Part shown: positions 37,861 to 49,427 of the stretch, piece by piece
Layout: each line of letters starts with the position of its first letter
Position numbering within the stretch: position 1 is the stretch's first letter
Assembly: GCA_030673895.1 (NCBI GenBank)
Contig: JAUTCR010000004.1
Coordinates: forward strand, 1 to 64,000
From: Verrucomicrobiota bacterium JB023
GTDB lineage: Bacteria > Verrucomicrobiota > Verrucomicrobiia > Verrucomicrobiales > Akkermansiaceae
Length of the DNA: 64,000 nucleotides
Direction of reading: 5' to 3'
Translations under genes and position numbers: made by a program
The notes under the pieces: model-generated
What the model saw: only the letters and a program-made list of their open reading frames with translations
The model's database searches: none
Told to the model about the DNA's origin: nothing

Positions 37861-40800
37861 ATGAAAAAAATGACCCCGCAACAGACTGTTTTCGCTTTGA
37901 TGGCACTGGCTTCCACGCAGGTGGGAGCACAATACACCTACAATGGGAGTGGAAACTGGTCGATGGCCGCCAATTGGTCCCACGCAACCAACGATGGAGA
38001 AGTTCCGGGCACGGATTTGGATGAGCAAGCAGTGATCCCCGGCGGCAGCGTGGTGACCCTGAACTCGACACAACCGAACGTGCGTGCGCTGCGCCTGCAG
38101 GGCGGGAGCGGCACGGCTACCCTGAACATTGAGCCGGGCGCGGATCTTCAATTCACCACCCACAGTTCGTGGGATTCCAGCATCGGACGGGCAGGAGCCG
38201 ACGGCGTTGTGAGCCAGAGTGGGGGGGATATCAGCATCAACTTTCTGGAGCTTGGGCGTGATAACGGAACCACCGGCGAATATTTTCTAAGCGGAGGTTC
38301 ACTTAATATCTCCCGGGGCGGACACTCCGCGACGGGTGGTTCGAGTCTGATCATCGGCACGGCGGATAGCAATGCATCCGGTGGCACCGCGACGGGATTG
38401 TTGGAAATCAGCGGAGGGCAATTCACCACGCGCTCGGGGGTATGGATTGGCGGCACGAGCGGAACCGCGGACGCCACGTTCTCCGTTCTGGGCAGCGGCG
38501 CTTCGGAGATTGGGATTGGGACCACCAACACGGGAACTGACGGCCATTGGACGCTCAACGCGGGAGCGACCCTCGCGGTGGGAGTCGAACTTTCCGGACT
38601 CACCAAAATTTTGGTCGATGACCACGGGAATGGAAACAGCTTCGCTACCTTTGAGGCCGGTTCGCTTCTCGATGTGGATTACTACGGAGACGGGCAAGGT
38701 GGGGGGACGTGGACCGTTCTCGAACTTGAAAATGGTGACATCGTGGATAACGGGCTCGCGTTCGCTCCCGGCGTGGATACGAGCATTTGGTCCTTCCAAG
38801 TCGATAATTCCGGAGCCAATGGGATCTTGACGGTGACGGCTGCGGGCGACCCTCCGGGTATCCTCGGGAATTGGTTCACCATTGAGGCGGAGGATCACTC
38901 CGGCCAATCGGGGACGCGCTTGGAAGACTGCGCCGATACCGGTGGAGGACAGAACGTGGCTTATATTTCCGGGGGAGACTGGTGCCGATACGATGATGTC
39001 ACACTGGGTGACAATGCCTTGCTGAACTTCCGCGTGGCCCGACCGGATGACACCGATGACGGGCGCATTGAGGTGCGTCTGGGTTCGCCCACTGGTACCC
39101 TCATCGGGCAAATCGATGTGCCTGTGACGGGTGGTTGGCAGAGCTGGGAAACTGTTTCGGTGCCCGTTGCCCCGGTCGTGGGGAAGCAGGATATTTATCT
39201 GGTTTTCGTCGAATCGAGCACCACCAATGGCGGCTCGCTGTTCAATCTCAACTGGTGGTCCAAGACGGCGATGGTGGAAGCGGAGGACTTCGACGCGGGT
39301 GCAGGCTATCGATTCGAGACAACTGGAGATGTGGGCGGCGGCCAGAATCTAGGTTGGATCTCGGATGGTGAGTGGATGGAATACACGATCGAGGTGGAGG
39401 AGCCCGGTTTCCACCGGCTTAATTTCAGGGTGGCCGCTCCGGGTTCAGATGGGTCGATTGATATCGTTTCGAACGGACAGACCTTGGGTTCTGTTTCCAT
39501 CGGTGATACGGGAGGCTACCAATCCTGGACCACGGTGAGCACCTTTGTGGAGCTGCCCAATGCGGGCGTCCAGACCTTGCGTCTTGAGTTCGTGGTTCCC
39601 TCGAGCGGTTTCAATCTCAACTGGTTCGCCTATCAGGAAGCTCCGCAGCCGCTGCAAATTGTAGTCGGAAATACGCCAAAGCAGCAGATGCGTTACGGCC
39701 TTGATTACGAGCGACTTTGGTTCTGGCAGGGTAGCAATGCGGTGCGGGATCGATTCGCTCAATGGTCGGTCGACGATTGCGATGTCGATTACATCCGCGT
39801 CGCAATCAATGCCAAATACGAGCTGACGGAGGGAGTTTTCCAGGAAGACGCCTACTTCGACGCCGATGATAGTGAGGGAGGAGGGACCAACAATGACCGC
39901 ATCATCCCGATGATGAGAGACATGCAGGAAGCGAATCCGGACATCAAATTCTTCGCCTCCCCTCGTCCTCTCAACGAGGCCGTCTCGGGCGTCGCATGGC
40001 AGCCCTATCCACAATGGATCACCGGCAGCTCGGGGAGTAACAGCAACTTCAACTTCGATGAGGTCAAGTGCTCGGAGTATTTGCTGCGATACCTCATCCT
40101 GATGAAGCATCATGGCTTTCAGATTTCCTACATGGATCTCACCAACGAGTGGAATCACCTCAATGCGCAGGATGTGCGGGATATCAGTGCGCTATTTGAT
40201 GATTACCTCGACGGAACGAAGCCCGTCATCCATCCCGATTATCCTGATGTGACGCTGACCGCGGAGGATATCCCGCTACTCATTGCCCCCTCGGCATGGA
40301 GTTATTCCCAAGGCAGCTCGTGGATGAATGGGGTCCGCTTCTCTTCCTACCGCCAAGCTCTTGATATTGCCGCTTGCCATAATACGGACAAAGGAGGAAC
40401 TGCACAGGACTTCGCGGATAGCGTCCGGGAGCGCTACGTGGACGACGAGGGTGAACTTCTCTCAGTGCCAGTCCCGGAGATTTGGAACACCGAAGTTCAT
40501 GGATGGAAAAGCACCTCAAATGCGGATGAAGTGCTGACCTTTGCTTACATGATGGAGTGCATTAACGCCGGATTTTCTGGGCTTAGCGGCTGGCTGGCCG
40601 TCGGCTTCAGTAACCAGGGCCACTGCTATATCGTCAATTCGCAACGAAGCGTTAAATATTACATCTTCAAGAAACTGGCCAATACCTCTCACCGGGGATT
40701 CGCGCTGGATGTGAACGAGCCGGATGAGTTCAAGGTCTATTGGGATCCCGATCCGGATCAGCAGGATGCGGACTCGGCTGTCACGGCACTGATTCGCGGA

Positions 40801-41979
40801 AACCTGATGACGGTTTGGACGCTCAATCACTCGAACACCGATCACCTCGTTAACATCATACCGAGCGGCAGGACGATTAGTGACGAGCCGATACGGTTCA
40901 CCCGCTGGAGCCAATACGACGGCCTGGGTGTCGAGGGGGAGACCGGGATGATCGCCAACCCCGGTGACGACTCCTTCTATGCCACCGTGCAGGACAATTC
41001 CGCCTACTGCTTCGAGATTCTACTCGAGCCGGAATCAGTGCCTTATGTGCGGACCGAGGCCGAAGGCTTTCAGACCAGCGATCCCGGCGTGTCTTCAACC
41101 GGTGGCGATACCGGAATCGGCGGAGGAGCGCATCTTGAGGGACTCACGGATGGGTCTTGGACTTCTTATCCTAACGTCGACCTGAGTCACTCTGCTTCGA
41201 TTCGATTGCGGGTGGCAGCCGCTGCCGGCAGCCCCGACGGGTGGATCGAGGTTCGCACGGGCAGCCCGACGGGTCCGAGAATCGGCCGGGTCGCAATACC
41301 CGAGACGGGCGGATGGCAGAATTGGTGGACCGTGGAGACCCCGATTGAGCCTACCCCCGGCACGCATGACCTCTACTTGGTCTACGTGGAGGCAAAATCG
41401 AACGAACAGGGAACGGGTCCGATGTTTAATCTCGATTGGTTTGAGCTCATCCAGACGGAGGCACCCGCTGCGCTAGCGGGAGGGCCAGAAAGTGGGAGTG
41501 CAGTCTCTCTTTCTTGGGACGAAGTTCCGGGAGCGATAGGCTATGTCATCAAGCGTTCGTCGGGAGCAGGCGGTCCTTACTCCGTCGTCGATGATACGCT
41601 TACGGATACGAGCTACATTGACCAGGGACTGACTGCGGGCAGCGCCTATCATTACGTGATTGCCGCGCGTTATGAGAATGGCGCAACGAGCGCCAATTCG
41701 GCTGAGCTCGTCGTGATCCCATCGGACCCAATTACTATCGGAGACCTCGATTTCGGCCTGCCGGCGATGAGCCCGAGTGGCGACCAGGTCAGCATCGAGC
41801 TAGCGAATTCCGAACTCGGCCATCTCTATCAGGGGCAGCAAAAGAAGAACCTGAGCGAGGGCGAATGGAGTGATGTAGGTGACGCCGTGGCAGGAAATGG
41901 TGGGTCCTTGATGTTCGAGTTCCCGGTGGATCCCGGTGACGACAAGTGCTTCTACCGCTTCGTTATTGAGAGGCAATAA
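37861..41979 (+). CDS. Giant secreted glycoside hydrolase with three CBM6 modules and FN3 domain
   Basis: 1372 residues. Order: signal peptide (to about 23); beta-helical passenger-like region with Gly/Ser repeats (about 24-335); CBM6 (about 340-465, starting FTIEAEDHSG); CBM6 (about 470-590, starting AMVEAEDFDAG); a (beta/alpha)8-like catalytic domain (about 605-1050); a third CBM6 (about 1060-1195); fibronectin type III (about 1203-1290); and a short phylum-specific beta domain ending CFYRFVIERQ. TNEWNHLN (Glu763) and IWNTEVHGW (Glu878) look like acid/base and nucleophile of a clan GH-A retaining enzyme. The exact GH family is not recognised; GH30, GH39 or GH86 relatives are candidates. CBM6 modules bind xylan, beta-glucan or agar ends, so a marine polysaccharide is likely. 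Confidence 0.8.
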   Translation: MKKMTPQQTVFALMALASTQVGAQYTYNGSGNWSMAANWSHATNDGEVPGTDLDEQAVIPGGSVVTLNSTQPNVRALRLQGGSGTATLNIEPGADLQFTTHSSWDSSIGRAGADGVVSQSGGDISINFLELGRDNGTTGEYFLSGGSLNISRGGHSATGGSSLIIGTADSNASGGTATGLLEISGGQFTTRSGVWIGGTSGTADATFSVLGSGASEIGIGTTNTGTDGHWTLNAGATLAVGVELSGLTKILVDDHGNGNSFATFEAGSLLDVDYYGDGQGGGTWTVLELENGDIVDNGLAFAPGVDTSIWSFQVDNSGANGILTVTAAGDPPGILGNWFTIEAEDHSGQSGTRLEDCADTGGGQNVAYISGGDWCRYDDVTLGDNALLNFRVARPDDTDDGRIEVRLGSPTGTLIGQIDVPVTGGWQSWETVSVPVAPVVGKQDIYLVFVESSTTNGGSLFNLNWWSKTAMVEAEDFDAGAGYRFETTGDVGGGQNLGWISDGEWMEYTIEVEEPGFHRLNFRVAAPGSDGSIDIVSNGQTLGSVSIGDTGGYQSWTTVSTFVELPNAGVQTLRLEFVVPSSGFNLNWFAYQEAPQPLQIVVGNTPKQQMRYGLDYERLWFWQGSNAVRDRFAQWSVDDCDVDYIRVAINAKYELTEGVFQEDAYFDADDSEGGGTNNDRIIPMMRDMQEANPDIKFFASPRPLNEAVSGVAWQPYPQWITGSSGSNSNFNFDEVKCSEYLLRYLILMKHHGFQISYMDLTNEWNHLNAQDVRDISALFDDYLDGTKPVIHPDYPDVTLTAEDIPLLIAPSAWSYSQGSSWMNGVRFSSYRQALDIAACHNTDKGGTAQDFADSVRERYVDDEGELLSVPVPEIWNTEVHGWKSTSNADEVLTFAYMMECINAGFSGLSGWLAVGFSNQGHCYIVNSQRSVKYYIFKKLANTSHRGFALDVNEPDEFKVYWDPDPDQQDADSAVTALIRGNLMTVWTLNHSNTDHLVNIIPSGRTISDEPIRFTRWSQYDGLGVEGETGMIANPGDDSFYATVQDNSAYCFEILLEPESVPYVRTEAEGFQTSDPGVSSTGGDTGIGGGAHLEGLTDGSWTSYPNVDLSHSASIRLRVAAAAGSPDGWIEVRTGSPTGPRIGRVAIPETGGWQNWWTVETPIEPTPGTHDLYLVYVEAKSNEQGTGPMFNLDWFELIQTEAPAALAGGPESGSAVSLSWDEVPGAIGYVIKRSSGAGGPYSVVDDTLTDTSYIDQGLTAGSAYHYVIAARYENGATSANSAELVVIPSDPITIGDLDFGLPAMSPSGDQVSIELANSELGHLYQGQQKKNLSEGEWSDVGDAVAGNGGSLMFEFPVDPGDDKCFYRFVIERQ

Positions 41980-42043: not shown

Positions 42044-44155
42044 TTAGTCTGTTCCTCGAACAAGTGGAGCCCGGGGCATGATCGCTTCCGGCTCTTTCTC
42101 CTGCGCGAGGAGATAGTTTGGCTGCGCTGACCTGTTCGGGCTTTCGCCGCAAGCAAGCTGGTTGGTCAATCGAGATGCAGAAAATACGGTCAGGTTCTCC
42201 GCCCGGGTGAAGCATTCTTCCGTTGCCAACCCGCCACTGACCAAGCATCGCACCTTGGGGCCGGGCTGACGGGGTCTATCCCATCCCTTGGGCTCGCCGT
42301 CTGTTGCTTCTGCCAGGATGGCAAGACCGACAGGCATGGCGAGATCCTTGCCCGGATCCGTTGCTAGGAGGGCTTCCTCTCCTCGCGAGCTTCCGAGCCA
42401 AACAAGGCAGGTTATCTCTCGATCGAAACCAATGAACCACGCATCCCGCTGGCCATAGGATGATCCTGAGAAGCCAGCCAACCCTCGATTCATCAAACCA
42501 GCCTCGGCAAGGTGGGAGCGATATTCCGGCAAGTCCATGCGAGCGACGAGAATTTGTCTCAAGTCGTGACGAGTCTCCGCCGAAAGCTCGATTCGTTCGA
42601 GCGGCCGTGGAGACTTCAGGTAATCATTGTCGGCCGTTAGGACATAGTCGATGAAGCCTCCGTTGCGACGGTAGGTACCCTCGCAAGCCAAGGTGGCATA
42701 GGCTTGGGCGAGTTCAATCGGGCGGATGGAACTCTCTCCCAAAGCTGTGGCGACATAAGGGCGCAGAGGAGAATCGATGCCGAGCGTTCGACTTGTTGCG
42801 AGCACCCGGTGGACACCTGCCCGGTTGCTCAGCCGCACCGTGGCACTCAGCTTCGAGTTGAGGAGTGCGTATTCCGGCGAGATCATGCCTTCATATTGGT
42901 CGAAACTTTCACCCCATTCCCCGAGAATTCCTTTGGTCCCTCCGACCATTGCCGAGCCATTATTCAAGGGTGCGTCGAGAACTTTGGGAGCCGTCTTGTT
43001 TGGGTCTAACAATGCCGAGTAGCTTATCGGTAGAAAGGCGGTTCCGGCAGGTCGACGAGCTTGAAGAATGCGATCAAAAAACTGGTTGCGGGACTGGATG
43101 GACCCGACATGGGCGAGAATATTGCCCGATTCATTTTCAAGCACCACAACGCCACCTTCGAGGGCATCCTCCATCTCTGCGGGGAATAGCTCTTGATAGT
43201 CACTCACCCTGTCAGCCAGAGCTTTCGTGGCAAATTCTTGGAGATGGGTATCGACCGTCGTATGGACCACGCCGTTCTCAACCGCATCGGGATCGGCGAT
43301 GTCGGCCAGTTCTTTTTTAACAGCTTGTAGAGCGAGATTGGCTTCTCTGAAACGCAGATGTTCAGGAAGAATTCCCAACGGTTCCTCCCGAGCTGCTACC
43401 AATTGTTCGCGGTTGATAAAATCGCATTGAAACATGCGCACGAGGGAGCGGTTTCGTGCGGCGGTGGCATCTTCCTCGCTGACGAAGGGGGAGAAAACGG
43501 CGGGAAGTTTGATGACCGAGGCAAGCAAGGCTGCCTCGCTGACGCTGAGGTTGGACACCGACTTGCCGAAGTAGCCTTTGCTGGCCGAAGCGACACCATA
43601 GAAGCCGCTGCCCAAGTAAATGTGGTTGAGATACCGCTGCAGAATTTCCTCTTTCGAGTAACGCCGCTCAATACGGTTCGAGACAAAGACCTCGCGCATC
43701 TTGCGGTCATAGTTTCGTCCTCTCAAGCCATAGACGTGCCGCACCAGCTGCTGGGTGATGGTGCTGCCGCCCTGCCGGATGCGGCCTGCTTTGGCATTGG
43801 CCACCGCTGCGCGAGCAATGCCTCGCAAGTCAATGCCGCCGTGTGAGAAAAACCGTGAATCCTCGGTGGCGACGATGGCATTGATCAAATTGGGAGAGAC
43901 ATCGTCGTAAGCGACAAATTCCTGACTCTTGACAAAGAGTCGCCCGATCGTGTCGTCGTTTTTCCCGGCGACCCGCGCGCCAACTTTCATCTCATTAAGG
44001 GCCTCCAAATCGTAAGCGGAAGCCACTTTGGCATAGCGAATGGTGACGGCAGCGACAGCCAAGACCGCGATGAAGCCGCAGAAGAGGGTCAGGAAGGCGA
44101 GAAAGCGGACCCATTTTGGCCAGGTGCGGAATTGGAGAATTTTTCGGTGTTTCAT
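42044..44155 (-). CDS. Class A PBP-like glycosyltransferase with degenerate transpeptidase domain
   Basis: 703 residues. A transmembrane helix (about 18-40) precedes a GT51 domain with every key motif: EDSRFFSHGG (catalytic Glu98), RQGGSTITQQLVRH, RKMREVF (Glu155) and EEILQRYLNHIYLG. It should polymerise lipid II into glycan strands. The transpeptidase domain (about 330-600) keeps the fold landmarks RRPAG and DAWFIGF but not the chemistry: SxxK is T372-A-F-L375, SxN is S434-K-L436, and KTGT is F562-S-G-S565. It should therefore not acylate. Its ATG overlaps the TGA of the upstream class B gene (ATGA), so the two are coupled. Confidence 0.88.
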   Translation of the reverse strand: MKHRKILQFRTWPKWVRFLAFLTLFCGFIAVLAVAAVTIRYAKVASAYDLEALNEMKVGARVAGKNDDTIGRLFVKSQEFVAYDDVSPNLINAIVATEDSRFFSHGGIDLRGIARAAVANAKAGRIRQGGSTITQQLVRHVYGLRGRNYDRKMREVFVSNRIERRYSKEEILQRYLNHIYLGSGFYGVASASKGYFGKSVSNLSVSEAALLASVIKLPAVFSPFVSEEDATAARNRSLVRMFQCDFINREQLVAAREEPLGILPEHLRFREANLALQAVKKELADIADPDAVENGVVHTTVDTHLQEFATKALADRVSDYQELFPAEMEDALEGGVVVLENESGNILAHVGSIQSRNQFFDRILQARRPAGTAFLPISYSALLDPNKTAPKVLDAPLNNGSAMVGGTKGILGEWGESFDQYEGMISPEYALLNSKLSATVRLSNRAGVHRVLATSRTLGIDSPLRPYVATALGESSIRPIELAQAYATLACEGTYRRNGGFIDYVLTADNDYLKSPRPLERIELSAETRHDLRQILVARMDLPEYRSHLAEAGLMNRGLAGFSGSSYGQRDAWFIGFDREITCLVWLGSSRGEEALLATDPGKDLAMPVGLAILAEATDGEPKGWDRPRQPGPKVRCLVSGGLATEECFTRAENLTVFSASRLTNQLACGESPNRSAQPNYLLAQEKEPEAIMPRAPLVRGTD

Positions 44156-46128
44156 CGGGTGAAGCGGTCAAGTTTGTTGAGAGAGGCTTGTTCGTTTTCG
44201 ACTGGAATCGCTCGAATTGGCTGTGAGGCCCGTCGGCTCACGGGCTGGTTGTGGGGGTGGAACTCATCGACAGGGATGGCCTTGATAGGTTCAACCTTGG
44301 CAAACAACGGGTAACGATAGAGGGGCACATTGGCCGAACGCTCGGAGGCACGTAAAATTGATTGGGTCTCTGTTTGGAAGGCCCGGGAGAGGATTCGCCG
44401 AGCTACTGGAGCTGCCGTAGAGCCTCCACTGATGGAAGAACCTTTATCCTCCTCGAAGGCGACTACGAAGGCTAGCGGCGGATTCGAATCATGAACGTAG
44501 CCAGCGAACCAGGCGACGGTCCCTTCCTTTCCATCATGGCGCCACTGGGAGGTTCCCGTCTTGCCGGAGATGGGCAGGTGATCCAGGCGGGCTGACGATC
44601 CTGTGCCTCGTTCGTGATTAACCACCCGATAGAGCGCGCGTTGAACATGATGATGATTCTGCTCATGGCCATCAGGTAGAGACACCGCTTTGGCATCGAC
44701 GGCCTCAAGGACGTCGAAGTCTTGGGATTGGATGCGGCTGACCAGACGAGGTTCTGGTAGACGTTTACCTCGGCAGAGACCGGCCATCATGGTGACCACT
44801 TGCAAGGGGCTGGCGAGGACCTCGCCCTGGCCGATGGAAAGATTCGCAATCGCGCCCGGAGATGCAGCGTCTATGGGCAGGCGTCCGCGTGCAACATTCC
44901 GCAGAGGTACGTCAGGCTGTCTTCCCAAACCATATTCGCTCGCCTTGTTCAGGATCGGTCTCGCACCCGTGCTGATGGCTGCCTGATAGAAAAACGTATT
45001 GCATGAGCGAACCAATCCTTCCTCGATCGAGGCCATTCCCTCATCGCTATCAGACCAGTTGCGGAAGGTTCTCCCTTCGATTGTTAGAGAAGGTTCGCAG
45101 TAGATCCTTTCATAGGGAGTGATGGCACCGGACTCCAGTGCGGCGAGTGCAACCAAGGGCTTGAAGACGGAGCCCGGCGGATAACTTGCTGAGACCGCGC
45201 GGTGGTAGAGAGGGTCTCGCTGATCCTTTGCCAGTTCATCAAAATCGTCGGCCCCAATCCACGGCACGAAAGCCGAGGGAGAAAAGGTGGGATAAGAAGC
45301 CATGGCGAGCAGATCCCCGTTGTGTGCATTCATGAGGATGGCCGCACCGGGGAGGCCCCGCCGGGCAAGCTCAGAATCCACAATCTCTTGCAGTGACAAG
45401 TCGATGGTGAGAACGAGATTGTGGCCGGGTATCGGCTTGCGAATGGTGTTTGTCTCGACTTCGGCTCCCTCCTCGTCAAAGAGCCTCATAATCAATCCTG
45501 CTTTTCCTGAAAGGCGTTTCTGGAAGCTCTGTTCCAAGCCGACGGCTCCCGAATAGGTGCGCCAGTCCGGCTCGCCCTCCTGTGGGGCGCCTTGACCAGG
45601 GATGAAGTCACCCTTGAGGTGACCGATGAGATGGGCTCCGGTGTCGCCCTGTGGGTAGTCCCGGAGAACGACCCACTTGATACCGAGGTCGGCCTCGAGA
45701 GCCAAAGTAAAGATGGCGTCGGAATCCTCCGCATCCAGGGGCGAAGAGATGGTTAGTGGTTCAGGAGCGCGGTTCTCAAGGTGCTTGGTCAGCTCGTGCT
45801 GGGTGGGTAGTTTGCAAGCTTCCCGGAGTGTCTCAGGCAGGGATTCAAGGTGCGCCCGCAGCTGTTGAGCAAATTGCTCTGGTTGTTCGACCGCTGAGAG
45901 CGGGCAGGGGTAGGTGATTATTCCTGCGAGGTAGTTGGATGCTAGGGGGCGGCCCTTCCGATCGAGGATTTGCCCGCGTGGGGCCTCAATCGAACGGATT
46001 GCAGGGAAGAGATCGTCACGGCTTTGACGTGGAGCCTCGAACTCGAATGGACTGGCCATGACAAGGGGGGAGGCAATGGCCGAAAGGAGGCAGCAAAGCC
46101 AAGAGGTGGGAGGAATTTTTCTTTTCAT
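44152..46128 (-). CDS. Class B penicillin-binding protein with cleavable-looking signal peptide
   Basis: 658 residues. MKRKIPPTSW plus a hydrophobic stretch ending VMAS looks like a signal peptidase I substrate, unlike the uncleaved anchor of ordinary class B enzymes. APRGQILDRKGRPLASN (about 49-65) and VGLEQSFQ mark the PBP2-like pedestal. The transpeptidase motifs are complete: S320-VF-K323, S375-C-N377, K523-TGT. It should crosslink peptidoglycan in the periplasm. The last residues are translated into the start of the glycosyltransferase gene (4-bp ATGA overlap), so the two are expected in about equal amounts. The start is ATG 46128, where the signal peptide fits best. Confidence 0.9.
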   Translation of the reverse strand: MKRKIPPTSWLCCLLSAIASPLVMASPFEFEAPRQSRDDLFPAIRSIEAPRGQILDRKGRPLASNYLAGIITYPCPLSAVEQPEQFAQQLRAHLESLPETLREACKLPTQHELTKHLENRAPEPLTISSPLDAEDSDAIFTLALEADLGIKWVVLRDYPQGDTGAHLIGHLKGDFIPGQGAPQEGEPDWRTYSGAVGLEQSFQKRLSGKAGLIMRLFDEEGAEVETNTIRKPIPGHNLVLTIDLSLQEIVDSELARRGLPGAAILMNAHNGDLLAMASYPTFSPSAFVPWIGADDFDELAKDQRDPLYHRAVSASYPPGSVFKPLVALAALESGAITPYERIYCEPSLTIEGRTFRNWSDSDEGMASIEEGLVRSCNTFFYQAAISTGARPILNKASEYGLGRQPDVPLRNVARGRLPIDAASPGAIANLSIGQGEVLASPLQVVTMMAGLCRGKRLPEPRLVSRIQSQDFDVLEAVDAKAVSLPDGHEQNHHHVQRALYRVVNHERGTGSSARLDHLPISGKTGTSQWRHDGKEGTVAWFAGYVHDSNPPLAFVVAFEEDKGSSISGGSTAAPVARRILSRAFQTETQSILRASERSANVPLYRYPLFAKVEPIKAIPVDEFHPHNQPVSRRASQPIRAIPVENEQASLNKLDRFTR

Positions 46129-46415: not shown

Positions 46416-49400
46416 TTATTTGAACTCGGCGTCATTTCGCAGAGAGAGCCGATAGAACGCCTTGCTTGGTGGAGATTGCTGGTCGCTAAAGGTGAACGTA
46501 TCGTCTTCCACCGTAGCGCGATCAACGAGAGCATCGAAGGTGATGAGGTCCGTGCTACGATGAAGGTCGTAGGCCAGACCGGATTGCAGGTTGGTGAAGG
46601 TGACGTCAACCTGCGTGACGCTGCCCCCCGTCTTCACGAAGTCGATGCGCTCAAGCAACGGTGGGGAAGGCTGGCCAGAGGGAGGAAGCACGGTGAGAAT
46701 TCCCCCGGCATTCAAATAATTCGGGCCAAGGGCCTCAAGCGCGTCTCCAGCATAGACGCCGGGAGGAACAGTGCCGTTGACTGGATCGCTCACCTTGTTT
46801 GCCTGAAAAGTGAGGGCCTGGTCGACTCTGAGAGTTCCCTTCCCAATGAGCTCGAGGCCTGCTCCACCGGTGAAGTTGACGTCAGTGTTGAAGTCGAGGG
46901 TGGCATTCCCCAAAGGCCCTCGCCCTTGCACGGTAAGCTTGCCCGTGTAGCCCGCCTCATCCACTTCCGCGAAGGCAATCACTCTGTTCACGGTGAAGCT
47001 TGTGCCGCCGTCTCCGAGGCGGACTAACAGGTCACCCCTGCCGGTGAGGCGTCCGTCGATGGTCGCTGCATTGTCGCGAATGCTACTGGCTATCTCGAGG
47101 ATGCTACCGCTTGAGGAAGTGACGTGAAAGTCGGCGACATCAAAGACGGGGCTGCCATTGCCATTGGGACCGAAGCTAACTGTGCCTCCGTCGAGGATGA
47201 GGTCACCAATGCCTCCGTTGATTGAGGCGGTCTCGCTTTGCTGCTTGAGCAACAATCGGGTGCCCGAGGGAACGGTGAGCGAATTGCCGGGAAAGTTGGC
47301 AGGGCCGGCAGCGATTTGGTTCTGGGGCGAGCTGCGCATGATGTTGTTACCAACGGGGGAGAGCACGTAATCGAAGTCGGGCGAGGGAGCGGCGTCGTTG
47401 TCCCAGACCTTGGGGTTGAGCCAGCTTTGATTGTCCTCATCCATGAAGATGTCGGAGAGGAGTGGGTCACCGAAGCGGTTTTCAGCGAGGCGCGTGAGGG
47501 CCCCCTCGGCATCGATGAGGCCAAAGCCCGAGTCGGAATCGAAGCCGGGCGAACCCATATCGACCGCTGTCTGCTCAAGTAGCCTGAGGAGCTGCACCGG
47601 AGTGAGAGAATCGGGCCCTCCAGCACTTTCCAAGAGTAGGGCGGCCACTGCGGCGGCGTGGGGGGCGGCTGCGGAAGTGCCGAAGAAGTTGGGGAAGCTG
47701 TCGCCATCGTTCACGACCTGACCGAAAAAGGTGGTGTTGCCGCCATCGGCCGAGGTGATGCGCGGTTGAGCCGTGTCGATGGGTTGGGGGAGGCGGGTGC
47801 CATCGTCAGCAAAAAGAAGGAGACTGCCCCCTGGTGAAGAAAAGGATTCTAGTTGAGGGATTGCGGCCCCGAAGGCCGGCGTCTGAGAGAAGGGGGCGGC
47901 GGCGACTGCGATGGCGTTTTGGGCATTGGCGTGGCCGACGAGGGTGCTGCTCTGGGTGTCGAACTCGTTGACGGCAAAATCCCCCCGATTGATGAAGAGG
48001 ATTTTCATAAGGTTCGGAGCGGTTCCGGTGAGGCCTTCGATAGCAAGGTTGAATTCTGTATCGGGGCCGGGTTGTCCGTCGATGTCGATGGTCCCGTTGT
48101 TGGTAAAGCTGAAGATGTCGACGGCGTCCCCCCCTAGGTTGCGCGAGAATGCTCCGGAGAGAACGTTGAACTGGCCATCACCGCTGCCGGTTAGGAAGAT
48201 GTCGATATCCGACTGACAACCCGGAGCACCCGACACGCTGAAGAAGGGCTCATCCCATTGCAGGACAAAGGTGACTGCTGACCCCACGGGGATGGTGAAA
48301 CTCTGGAACGCGTCAATCCCAGGGCCAGCATCGAAGTCGTGCAACGGGCCTCCGCTGAGACCAGAGAACCCGTCGGCGAAGCGAAACCCGGACTCGTAGG
48401 ATTGGCGGGCGGAATTTCCCGCAGCGCTGAAGTAGGGTTTCCCGGCAGCGGAGACTTCATTCACGGCTTGAGCGATGAGGCCGTTTTGGAAGAAGGGTTC
48501 GGCGAAGAAGAAGACGTCATCGACAATGATGTCGCAACCAGCTGCAGCCAATGATCGGATCCCATTGGCAAAGGCGGCCTGACCATTGAAGGCGGTGAAA
48601 AACTTTTGTTCGGCTCCCGGCGCGAGGTCATGGATGATTTGCATCATGGCCCGCCCTTCATCGGTGGCCGGTTGGGCAAATTCGCTGAGGACCTCGATGT
48701 TACCGGGAAGGTCGTTGTTAGAGACATCTTCAGTAGCGGTCGTCGAGGGCGTCGGCGCGGTGGCGAAGCTGTCGGAAAGCGTGCCGATCGTGATGCCTTG
48801 ACCCGTCACGCCGGGGGAAATGGAGCGCGCAAGGTCCGCCTGAACGGCAGAGTCTCCTTGCGAGGTGGTGAGGCCGGAGCGGTTTTCACGGTAAGCGGGA
48901 CGAATGAAGGTGATGCCATCGAGCTGGGAAGCAGGACCGAGTCGATCGACGGGGACCCAAGCATTGATGACGCTACCTTGGTGGGTGATGCTAGTCGCGC
49001 CCAGGGCTGCGAGAGCGGGTTCAACTTCGGTCCAAGCCTCGTTATCGTTGCAGGCGACTTCGACGAGGGTTTTCCCTTCGGCGTAGGGATAGACCTCGTG
49101 GTCTGGTGAGAAGGGTGTCCCCGGATTGTTAGCAACCCAGTTGGACCATTGGAACGAGGTGTAAGCGAGCGACCAGTCGAGCTTGGCGAGTTGTCCATCA
49201 GCTCCAGCGAGATCGTCGCCGTGATAGGCCTGCCGGGCATCCTGATACCAAGCCTTGTCGGAATTGATAAAGGATTGATTGAGCGGATTGGTTCCTCCTC
49301 CGCCGAGTTTGGGACCAGAGGTCAAGGGGCCTTGGGCCCATGCAGGGAGGCTGGTGATCGCTAGAATCAAGAGGTGACGCTTTGCGAACTCGAGTGATGA

Positions 49401-49427
49401 CGTCGATGAGCAGTGCATAGTTTTCAT
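46416..49427 (-). CDS. Subtilisin-like (S8) protein with Glu in place of the catalytic His
   Basis: 1003 residues. A signal peptide (ending LPAWAQ) is followed by a propeptide-like region (about 50-200), and a protease fold with GITIGTLSDSF (Asp219), SAAGNSA (oxyanion Asn338) and FGTSAAAPH (Ser585). At the usual HGTxM position the sequence is DEGRAM, so Glu257 replaces His. A PPC-like beta domain is inserted between about 370 and 485. From about 660 there are beta-strand repeats similar to autotransporter-associated repeats. The C-terminal about 70 residues form the phylum-specific short beta domain (AYDLHRSTDLITFD to KAFYRLSL). Extracellular; activity uncertain. Confidence 0.82.
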   Translation of the reverse strand: MKTMHCSSTSSLEFAKRHLLILAITSLPAWAQGPLTSGPKLGGGGTNPLNQSFINSDKAWYQDARQAYHGDDLAGADGQLAKLDWSLAYTSFQWSNWVANNPGTPFSPDHEVYPYAEGKTLVEVACNDNEAWTEVEPALAALGATSITHQGSVINAWVPVDRLGPASQLDGITFIRPAYRENRSGLTTSQGDSAVQADLARSISPGVTGQGITIGTLSDSFATAPTPSTTATEDVSNNDLPGNIEVLSEFAQPATDEGRAMMQIIHDLAPGAEQKFFTAFNGQAAFANGIRSLAAAGCDIIVDDVFFFAEPFFQNGLIAQAVNEVSAAGKPYFSAAGNSARQSYESGFRFADGFSGLSGGPLHDFDAGPGIDAFQSFTIPVGSAVTFVLQWDEPFFSVSGAPGCQSDIDIFLTGSGDGQFNVLSGAFSRNLGGDAVDIFSFTNNGTIDIDGQPGPDTEFNLAIEGLTGTAPNLMKILFINRGDFAVNEFDTQSSTLVGHANAQNAIAVAAAPFSQTPAFGAAIPQLESFSSPGGSLLLFADDGTRLPQPIDTAQPRITSADGGNTTFFGQVVNDGDSFPNFFGTSAAAPHAAAVAALLLESAGGPDSLTPVQLLRLLEQTAVDMGSPGFDSDSGFGLIDAEGALTRLAENRFGDPLLSDIFMDEDNQSWLNPKVWDNDAAPSPDFDYVLSPVGNNIMRSSPQNQIAAGPANFPGNSLTVPSGTRLLLKQQSETASINGGIGDLILDGGTVSFGPNGNGSPVFDVADFHVTSSSGSILEIASSIRDNAATIDGRLTGRGDLLVRLGDGGTSFTVNRVIAFAEVDEAGYTGKLTVQGRGPLGNATLDFNTDVNFTGGAGLELIGKGTLRVDQALTFQANKVSDPVNGTVPPGVYAGDALEALGPNYLNAGGILTVLPPSGQPSPPLLERIDFVKTGGSVTQVDVTFTNLQSGLAYDLHRSTDLITFDALVDRATVEDDTFTFSDQQSPPSKAFYRLSLRNDAEFK

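Follow-up and report, generated by a model that had tools for sequence, protein, structure and literature searches.

Why should a class A penicillin-binding protein (PBP), which textbooks describe as a bifunctional enzyme, keep a full transpeptidase (TP) domain whose catalytic motifs have gone, and why should its gene be joined to that of a class B PBP in which every motif is intact? This question is raised by two genes in a 64,000-nucleotide stretch (positions 1 to 64,000 of contig JAUTCR010000004.1; referred to here as the window) of the 4.03-Mb genome of Verrucomicrobiota bacterium JB023. The upstream gene (44152..46128, reverse strand, ATG at 46128) encodes a PBP2/MrdA-like class B PBP. 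The downstream gene (42044..44155, reverse strand) encodes, in an open frame, a class A PBP of 703 amino acids with an intact GT51 glycosyltransferase (GT) domain and a catalytically dead TP domain. The TGA stop codon of the former and the ATG start codon of the latter overlap as ATGA (44152..44155, reverse strand). We consider it reasonably probable that the two genes specify a split peptidoglycan synthase, in which the class A protein polymerizes and the class B protein crosslinks. An original prediction, made from the sequence of the window, had given the coordinates, motif residues, GT51 motifs, overlapping codons, and intact upstream class B gene, and reanalysis confirmed all of these.

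The GT51 half of the class A protein is intact. The GT51 domain comprises residues 72-241 (43433..43942, reverse strand; PF00912, 197 bits) and follows an N-terminal helix, residues 14-46 in the AlphaFold2 (AF2) model (44018..44116, reverse strand), that is the likely membrane anchor. Alignment columns from 51 proteins showed that the catalytic glutamates E98 and E155 are invariant. C-terminal to the GT51 domain lies a TP domain (42305..43162, reverse strand) whose fold is kept and whose match to PF00905 is weak, at 28.5 bits against a cut-off of 22.1. In this domain, SxxK is replaced by T372-A-F-L375 (43031..43042), SxN by S434-K-L436 (42848..42856), and KTGT by F562-S-G-S565 (42461..42472, all reverse strand). 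The positions assigned to the motifs in a phmmer alignment to Acinetobacter baumannii PBP1a agreed with those in alignments with live relatives; several MAFFT alignments, together with the phmmer comparison, ruled out misalignment as the cause of the apparent losses. Loss of all three motifs from the window protein, as first proposed, was therefore borne out by independent alignments.

Despite these losses, the TP fold is retained in the structural model. The AF2 model had a mean pLDDT (predicted local distance difference test) of 85.5, and its residues 270-649 superposed on the TP domain of PonA1 (5crf) with a Z score of 38.8 and a root mean square deviation of 2.8 over 344 residues. The protein scored 373.7 on TIGR02074 (PBP1a), under the cut-off of 508.75. 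By descent and predicted fold it is a class A PBP, and because TAFL, SKL, and FSGS occupy the SxxK, SxN, and KTG positions, its sequence is not that of a bifunctional synthase.

The class B protein, in contrast to its partner, carries an intact SxxK (SVFK, 45160..45171), SxN (SCN, 44998..45006), and KTGT (44551..44562, all reverse strand). It matched PF00905 with 181 bits and PBP_dimer with 54.9 bits; the closest NCBIfam model was TIGR03423 (pbp2_mrdA), at 374.7 bits and thus under the equivalog cut-off of 455. Its AF2 model (pLDDT 83) matched PBP2 and PBP3 structures. Canonical FtsI (in the dcw cluster) and canonical PBP2 (in the mreBCD operon) are encoded elsewhere in the genome, and the paired protein is therefore an extra class B PBP. 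These two canonical proteins carry a membrane anchor. At the N terminus of the paired protein, sequence inspection and hydropathy revealed a short run of hydrophobic residues that ends in A-x-A-like sites, with no longer anchor helix evident; by these rules the segment MKRKIPPTSWLCCLLSAIASPLVMA (46054..46128, reverse strand), followed by SPF after the predicted cut, is a putative cleavable signal peptide. Paired class B proteins with a readable N terminus resemble each other in this region. These observations suggest that the paired class B proteins, along with the P0003-type proteins described below, may have a cleaved signal peptide in place of a membrane anchor.

The pairing is not a local accident. 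We searched 387 Verrucomicrobiales genomes with P0001 and a class B alignment as queries, and defined pair-type class B proteins by a gap in the scores, full-length copies reaching about 670 bits or more and other proteins about 630 or lower (two partial pair-type copies at contig edges scored 687 and 619). Pair-type class B proteins were found in 44 of the 387 genomes. These are members of families f4 and f2 and, as the only carrier in family f1, the window genome; the pair was absent from the other f1 genomes searched. Wherever the contig was uncut, the class A gene stood directly behind the class B gene, except at four copies in genus g17, and the distance from the class B stop to the likeliest class A start was short (-4 to about 200 nucleotides). 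The lysine of SxxK was absent from all 44 distinct paired class A proteins, 17 of which still had the serine, while the GT51 motifs were kept across the orthologues. The class B motifs were present at 21/21 loci, as SxFK, an SxN-type motif (SNNS, shifted, at one locus), and KTGT. Outside the dead subfamily, all 11 class A proteins with a TP domain that were sampled, drawn from different families and classes of the phylum, kept SxxK, so the loss in the paired proteins exceeds chance. The division of labor is thus supported by the loss of the SxxK lysine, the invariant GT51 catalytic residues, and the intact class B partner. The original prediction had named an orthologue with an intact SxxK as evidence against it, and none of the 44 had one. 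The loss of every motif, which it described, makes the window species an extreme case: several paired orthologues retain SxN and KTG-like residues (for example, TAFT/SKN/KTGT in L064) or the serine, and the lysine is the only residue always gone.

We next compared the surroundings and the phylogenies of the two genes. Across 27 loci, only the class A and class B genes were common to all lineages; the other flanking genes varied and were not shared past close relatives, which ruled out a wider operon. The class A and class B gene trees agreed in their main groups, namely, the window genome with genera g19 and g23, two g17 groups, and a basal position of L064 and L091. The persistence of the adjacency while the flanks differ, together with the agreement of the trees, supports coupling of the two proteins, and the proposal that polymerization and crosslinking are divided between them is well supported by the same features. 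Adjacency and agreeing trees may point only indirectly to a complex between the class A and class B proteins.

We then estimated the ratio of nonsynonymous to synonymous substitution rates (dN/dS) by the Nei-Gojobori method in 61 unsaturated Prosthecobacter comparisons, which share branches and are not independent. Median dN/dS values for the GT51, dead TP, and live class B TP domains were 0.110, 0.122, and 0.103, respectively. Purifying selection acts on the dead TP domain in Prosthecobacter, and this, with the conserved operon, upholds the earlier view that selection lies behind the motif loss. A local pseudogene was ruled out by the orthologues, the open frame, and the dN/dS of about 0.12 among orthologues.

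The paired proteins are part of a wider group of class A proteins with a dead TP domain. In the class A tree, 22 paired rows fell on one side of a branch with a Shimodaira-Hasegawa-like approximate likelihood ratio test (SH-aLRT) value of 82. The sister clade has no paired class B gene, is common in the order, and extends to a few further families of the class. Within it, the SxxK lysine was gone from 78/84 rows and the serine from 83/84, with near-identical copies included. A loop of the form DNRxVMIGGxxGILGEWG, represented in the window protein by DAPLNNGSAMVGGTKGILGEWG (residues 394-415; 42911..42976, reverse strand), lies between the SxxK position and the SxN position in both clades; GEW was present in 43/44 paired rows and 81/84 sister-clade rows but in 0/9 live class A proteins. 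One sister-clade protein, L023 (genome G050), carries the GEWG loop together with intact SAFK, SKN, and KTGT and is a natural intermediate. As this intact protein has the loop, the loop probably arose before catalysis was lost. The tree further suggests that catalysis was lost more than once and in different order, the lysine apparently going first in the paired clade and the serine first in the sister clade.

The window genome itself (G000) encodes a full-length class A protein of the sister clade (L046, contig C57:10852-12903), with TTFL, SKV, and KTGT at the motif positions, the GEWG loop, and no adjacent class B gene. Of the four GT51 proteins encoded in the genome, three have neither SxxK nor a TP active site, so TP loss extends beyond the pair. 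A dead class A protein does stand beside a live class B protein, as originally described; the dead TP domain, however, is not special to the pair. A third type of GT51 protein, of about 560 to 640 amino acids, was also observed (C33:76224-77309; L002 and L047, with relatives L243, L244, and L246). It has only a remnant TP domain, with GPVFEPF at the SxxK position and no SxN or KTG. Family f1 has this type repeatedly, and several genomes carry it in tandem with a class A gene that is live.

P0003 (32497..34659, forward strand; PF00905, 198.7 bits; STFK and KTGT) is a second extra class B PBP, encoded 7.4 kb from the pair; it is a paralogue of the paired class B protein and has a signal-peptide-like N terminus. 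Nearly all genomes of the order have a P0003-type orthologue, distinct from canonical PBP2; in the tree, the paired class B proteins group with this type, apart from canonical PBP2 and FtsI. P0003 is the candidate partner for the dead class A protein on contig C57, which stands unpaired. In a phylum-wide sample of 289 genomes, high-scoring P0003-type or pair-type class B proteins and dead-subfamily class A proteins occurred in the same 42 genomes, which form one connected lineage set, so that this co-occurrence is not independent evidence. In two genomes farther away only a weaker class B match was present, and in one (G456) only a live-type class A match. At two loci, L183 (G048) and L194 (G631), no more than about 5 kb separates a P0003-type class B gene from a GEWG-type class A gene, hinting that the two were once linked ancestrally.

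Turning to the neighborhood of the pair, a large CBM6-bearing protein (37861-41979) is encoded on one flank and a subtilase-like protein (46416-49427) on the other. In the related genome G001 the neighboring P0003 locus is kept; within the stretch read around that locus, neither the pair nor the two flanking proteins had a match. Because the window genome is the only one in f1 to have the pair, and G001 keeps the P0003 locus alone, the class A and class B genes appear to have moved, or been lost, together. An examination of base composition for signs of recent insertion gave a slightly lower GC content at 36 to 46 kb (0.56 to 0.59, versus about 0.60).

Taken together, these results lead us to favor the following model of the split synthase. 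The membrane-anchored class A protein would polymerize lipid II through its GT51 domain and would be unable to crosslink, and the class B protein, apparently secreted by way of a cleavable signal peptide and free of a membrane anchor, would crosslink the newly made strands. Together with the GEWG loop, the TP fold that remains would most likely hold or regulate the class B protein beside the GT domain, a role replacing its lost catalysis, and the dead TP domain is thus probably a docking or regulatory part. The GT activity, the absence of TP activity, the physical interaction, and the localization of the class B protein are in each case predictions from sequence. Three points weigh against the model. 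The dead TP domain also occurs in the sister clade with no adjacent class B gene, and adjacency is therefore not required for TP loss. Genus g17 has four extra pair-type class B proteins with no class A gene. Finally, the putative signal peptide of the class B protein was called from hydropathy and A-x-A sites only. The g17 copies (L171, L172, L175, and L176) have neighbors that by eye are VanZ-like and nucleotide-sugar dehydrogenase-like, and a separate role for them is possible.

The main rival holds that the dead TP domain supports or regulates only its own GT domain, the class B protein being coexpressed and working independently or with a SEDS (shape, elongation, division, and sporulation) protein. 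In its favor, class A PBPs have their TP domain and linker packed close to the GT domain, and a dead fold and loop of the same kind occur in the sister clade with no class B gene alongside. We nevertheless regard this explanation as rather unlikely: the adjacency of just these two genes persists while other neighbors change, and their trees agree. Moreover, class B PBPs usually meet their SEDS partners through a membrane anchor, and the paired class B protein has no obvious one. A further possibility is that the dead domain is a sensor of substrate or peptidoglycan, binding stem peptides or nascent strands without reaction and guiding them to a nearby transpeptidase. The preserved fold, the strong purifying selection, and the partial retention of SxN- and KTG-like residues in many relatives would fit a sensor, but the SxN and KTG sites, with which live enzymes bind their substrate, are changed in Prosthecobacter and in the window protein, and we think this role improbable. 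Chance decay, with the TP domain a relic in a gene that survives for its GT domain alone, has in its favor the stepwise loss of single motifs, uneven between lineages, and the truncated GT51 type of family f1, whose TP remnant shows that decay does occur, yet a dN/dS of 0.12 near the GT and live TP values, a full-length fold, and a new conserved loop make it very improbable, and it was already disfavored.

The split synthase can be extended to a broader proposal, which we hold tentatively and as somewhat short of probable. Verrucomicrobiales and a few related families may possess a third kind of synthase, in which a GEWG-marked class A pseudotranspeptidase is both polymerase and membrane scaffold for an anchorless, secreted class B protein. 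It would exist in at least two ancient copies, one the operon pair and the other the dispersed C57-type class A protein with a P0003-type class B protein.

Cooperation between class A and class B PBPs is familiar from other bacteria. The GT activity of a class A protein is thought to cooperate with the TP activity of a class B protein in the Escherichia coli pairs PBP1A-PBP2 and PBP1B-PBP3 (PMC4632607) and in Staphylococcus aureus PBP2 with PBP2A (PMC12369386); in those pairs the intrinsic class A TP activity is kept, whereas here it has been lost by evolution and the pair forms one operon. In vitro, the pneumococcal class B proteins PBP2b and PBP2x crosslink alongside class A PBP2A with an active GT and a mutationally inactivated TP domain (reviewed in PMC4632607), the same division of labor in a laboratory mutant that is here a natural and conserved state. 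In Clostridioides difficile, the class A protein PBP1 is in a complex with the class B protein PBP3, and one partner has a noncatalytic role (PMC12539705), although there it is PBP3 whose catalysis is dispensable for its action while both activities of PBP1 are needed, whereas here the class A TP domain is dead. The pneumococcal and C. difficile systems make a split synthase biochemically feasible. SEDS-class B synthases (RodA-PBP2 and FtsW-FtsI) likewise place polymerase and crosslinker on separate chains; here, however, GT51 takes the place of SEDS as the polymerase, and a membrane anchor seems to be missing from the class B protein. Monofunctional GT51 enzymes (MtgA and SgtB) also polymerize without crosslinking but have no TP domain, whereas the class A protein of the pair keeps the whole TP fold under selection. 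Compared with PBP1a and PBP1b, the window protein is alike in domain order, GT51 motifs, TP fold, and N-terminal helix and differs in having no SxxK/SxN/KTG site, in its extra GEWG loop, and in falling below the TIGR02074 cut-off.

What was known, then, is the cooperation of class A with class B proteins; what is apparently new is a natural, conserved operon pair whose class A partner is without TP activity and is part of a loop-bearing subfamily. We found no description of such a conserved operon or subfamily in open-access papers, subscription journals lying outside the search. A whole class A subfamily appears to have given up crosslinking while keeping the folded domain under selection, in the pair beside a dedicated crosslinker. 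This makes testable both how a GT51 polymerase is coupled with a separate transpeptidase and why a dead TP fold is retained. For these bacteria, it predicts that some polymerases would not bind beta-lactams, whereas the crosslinker partner would.

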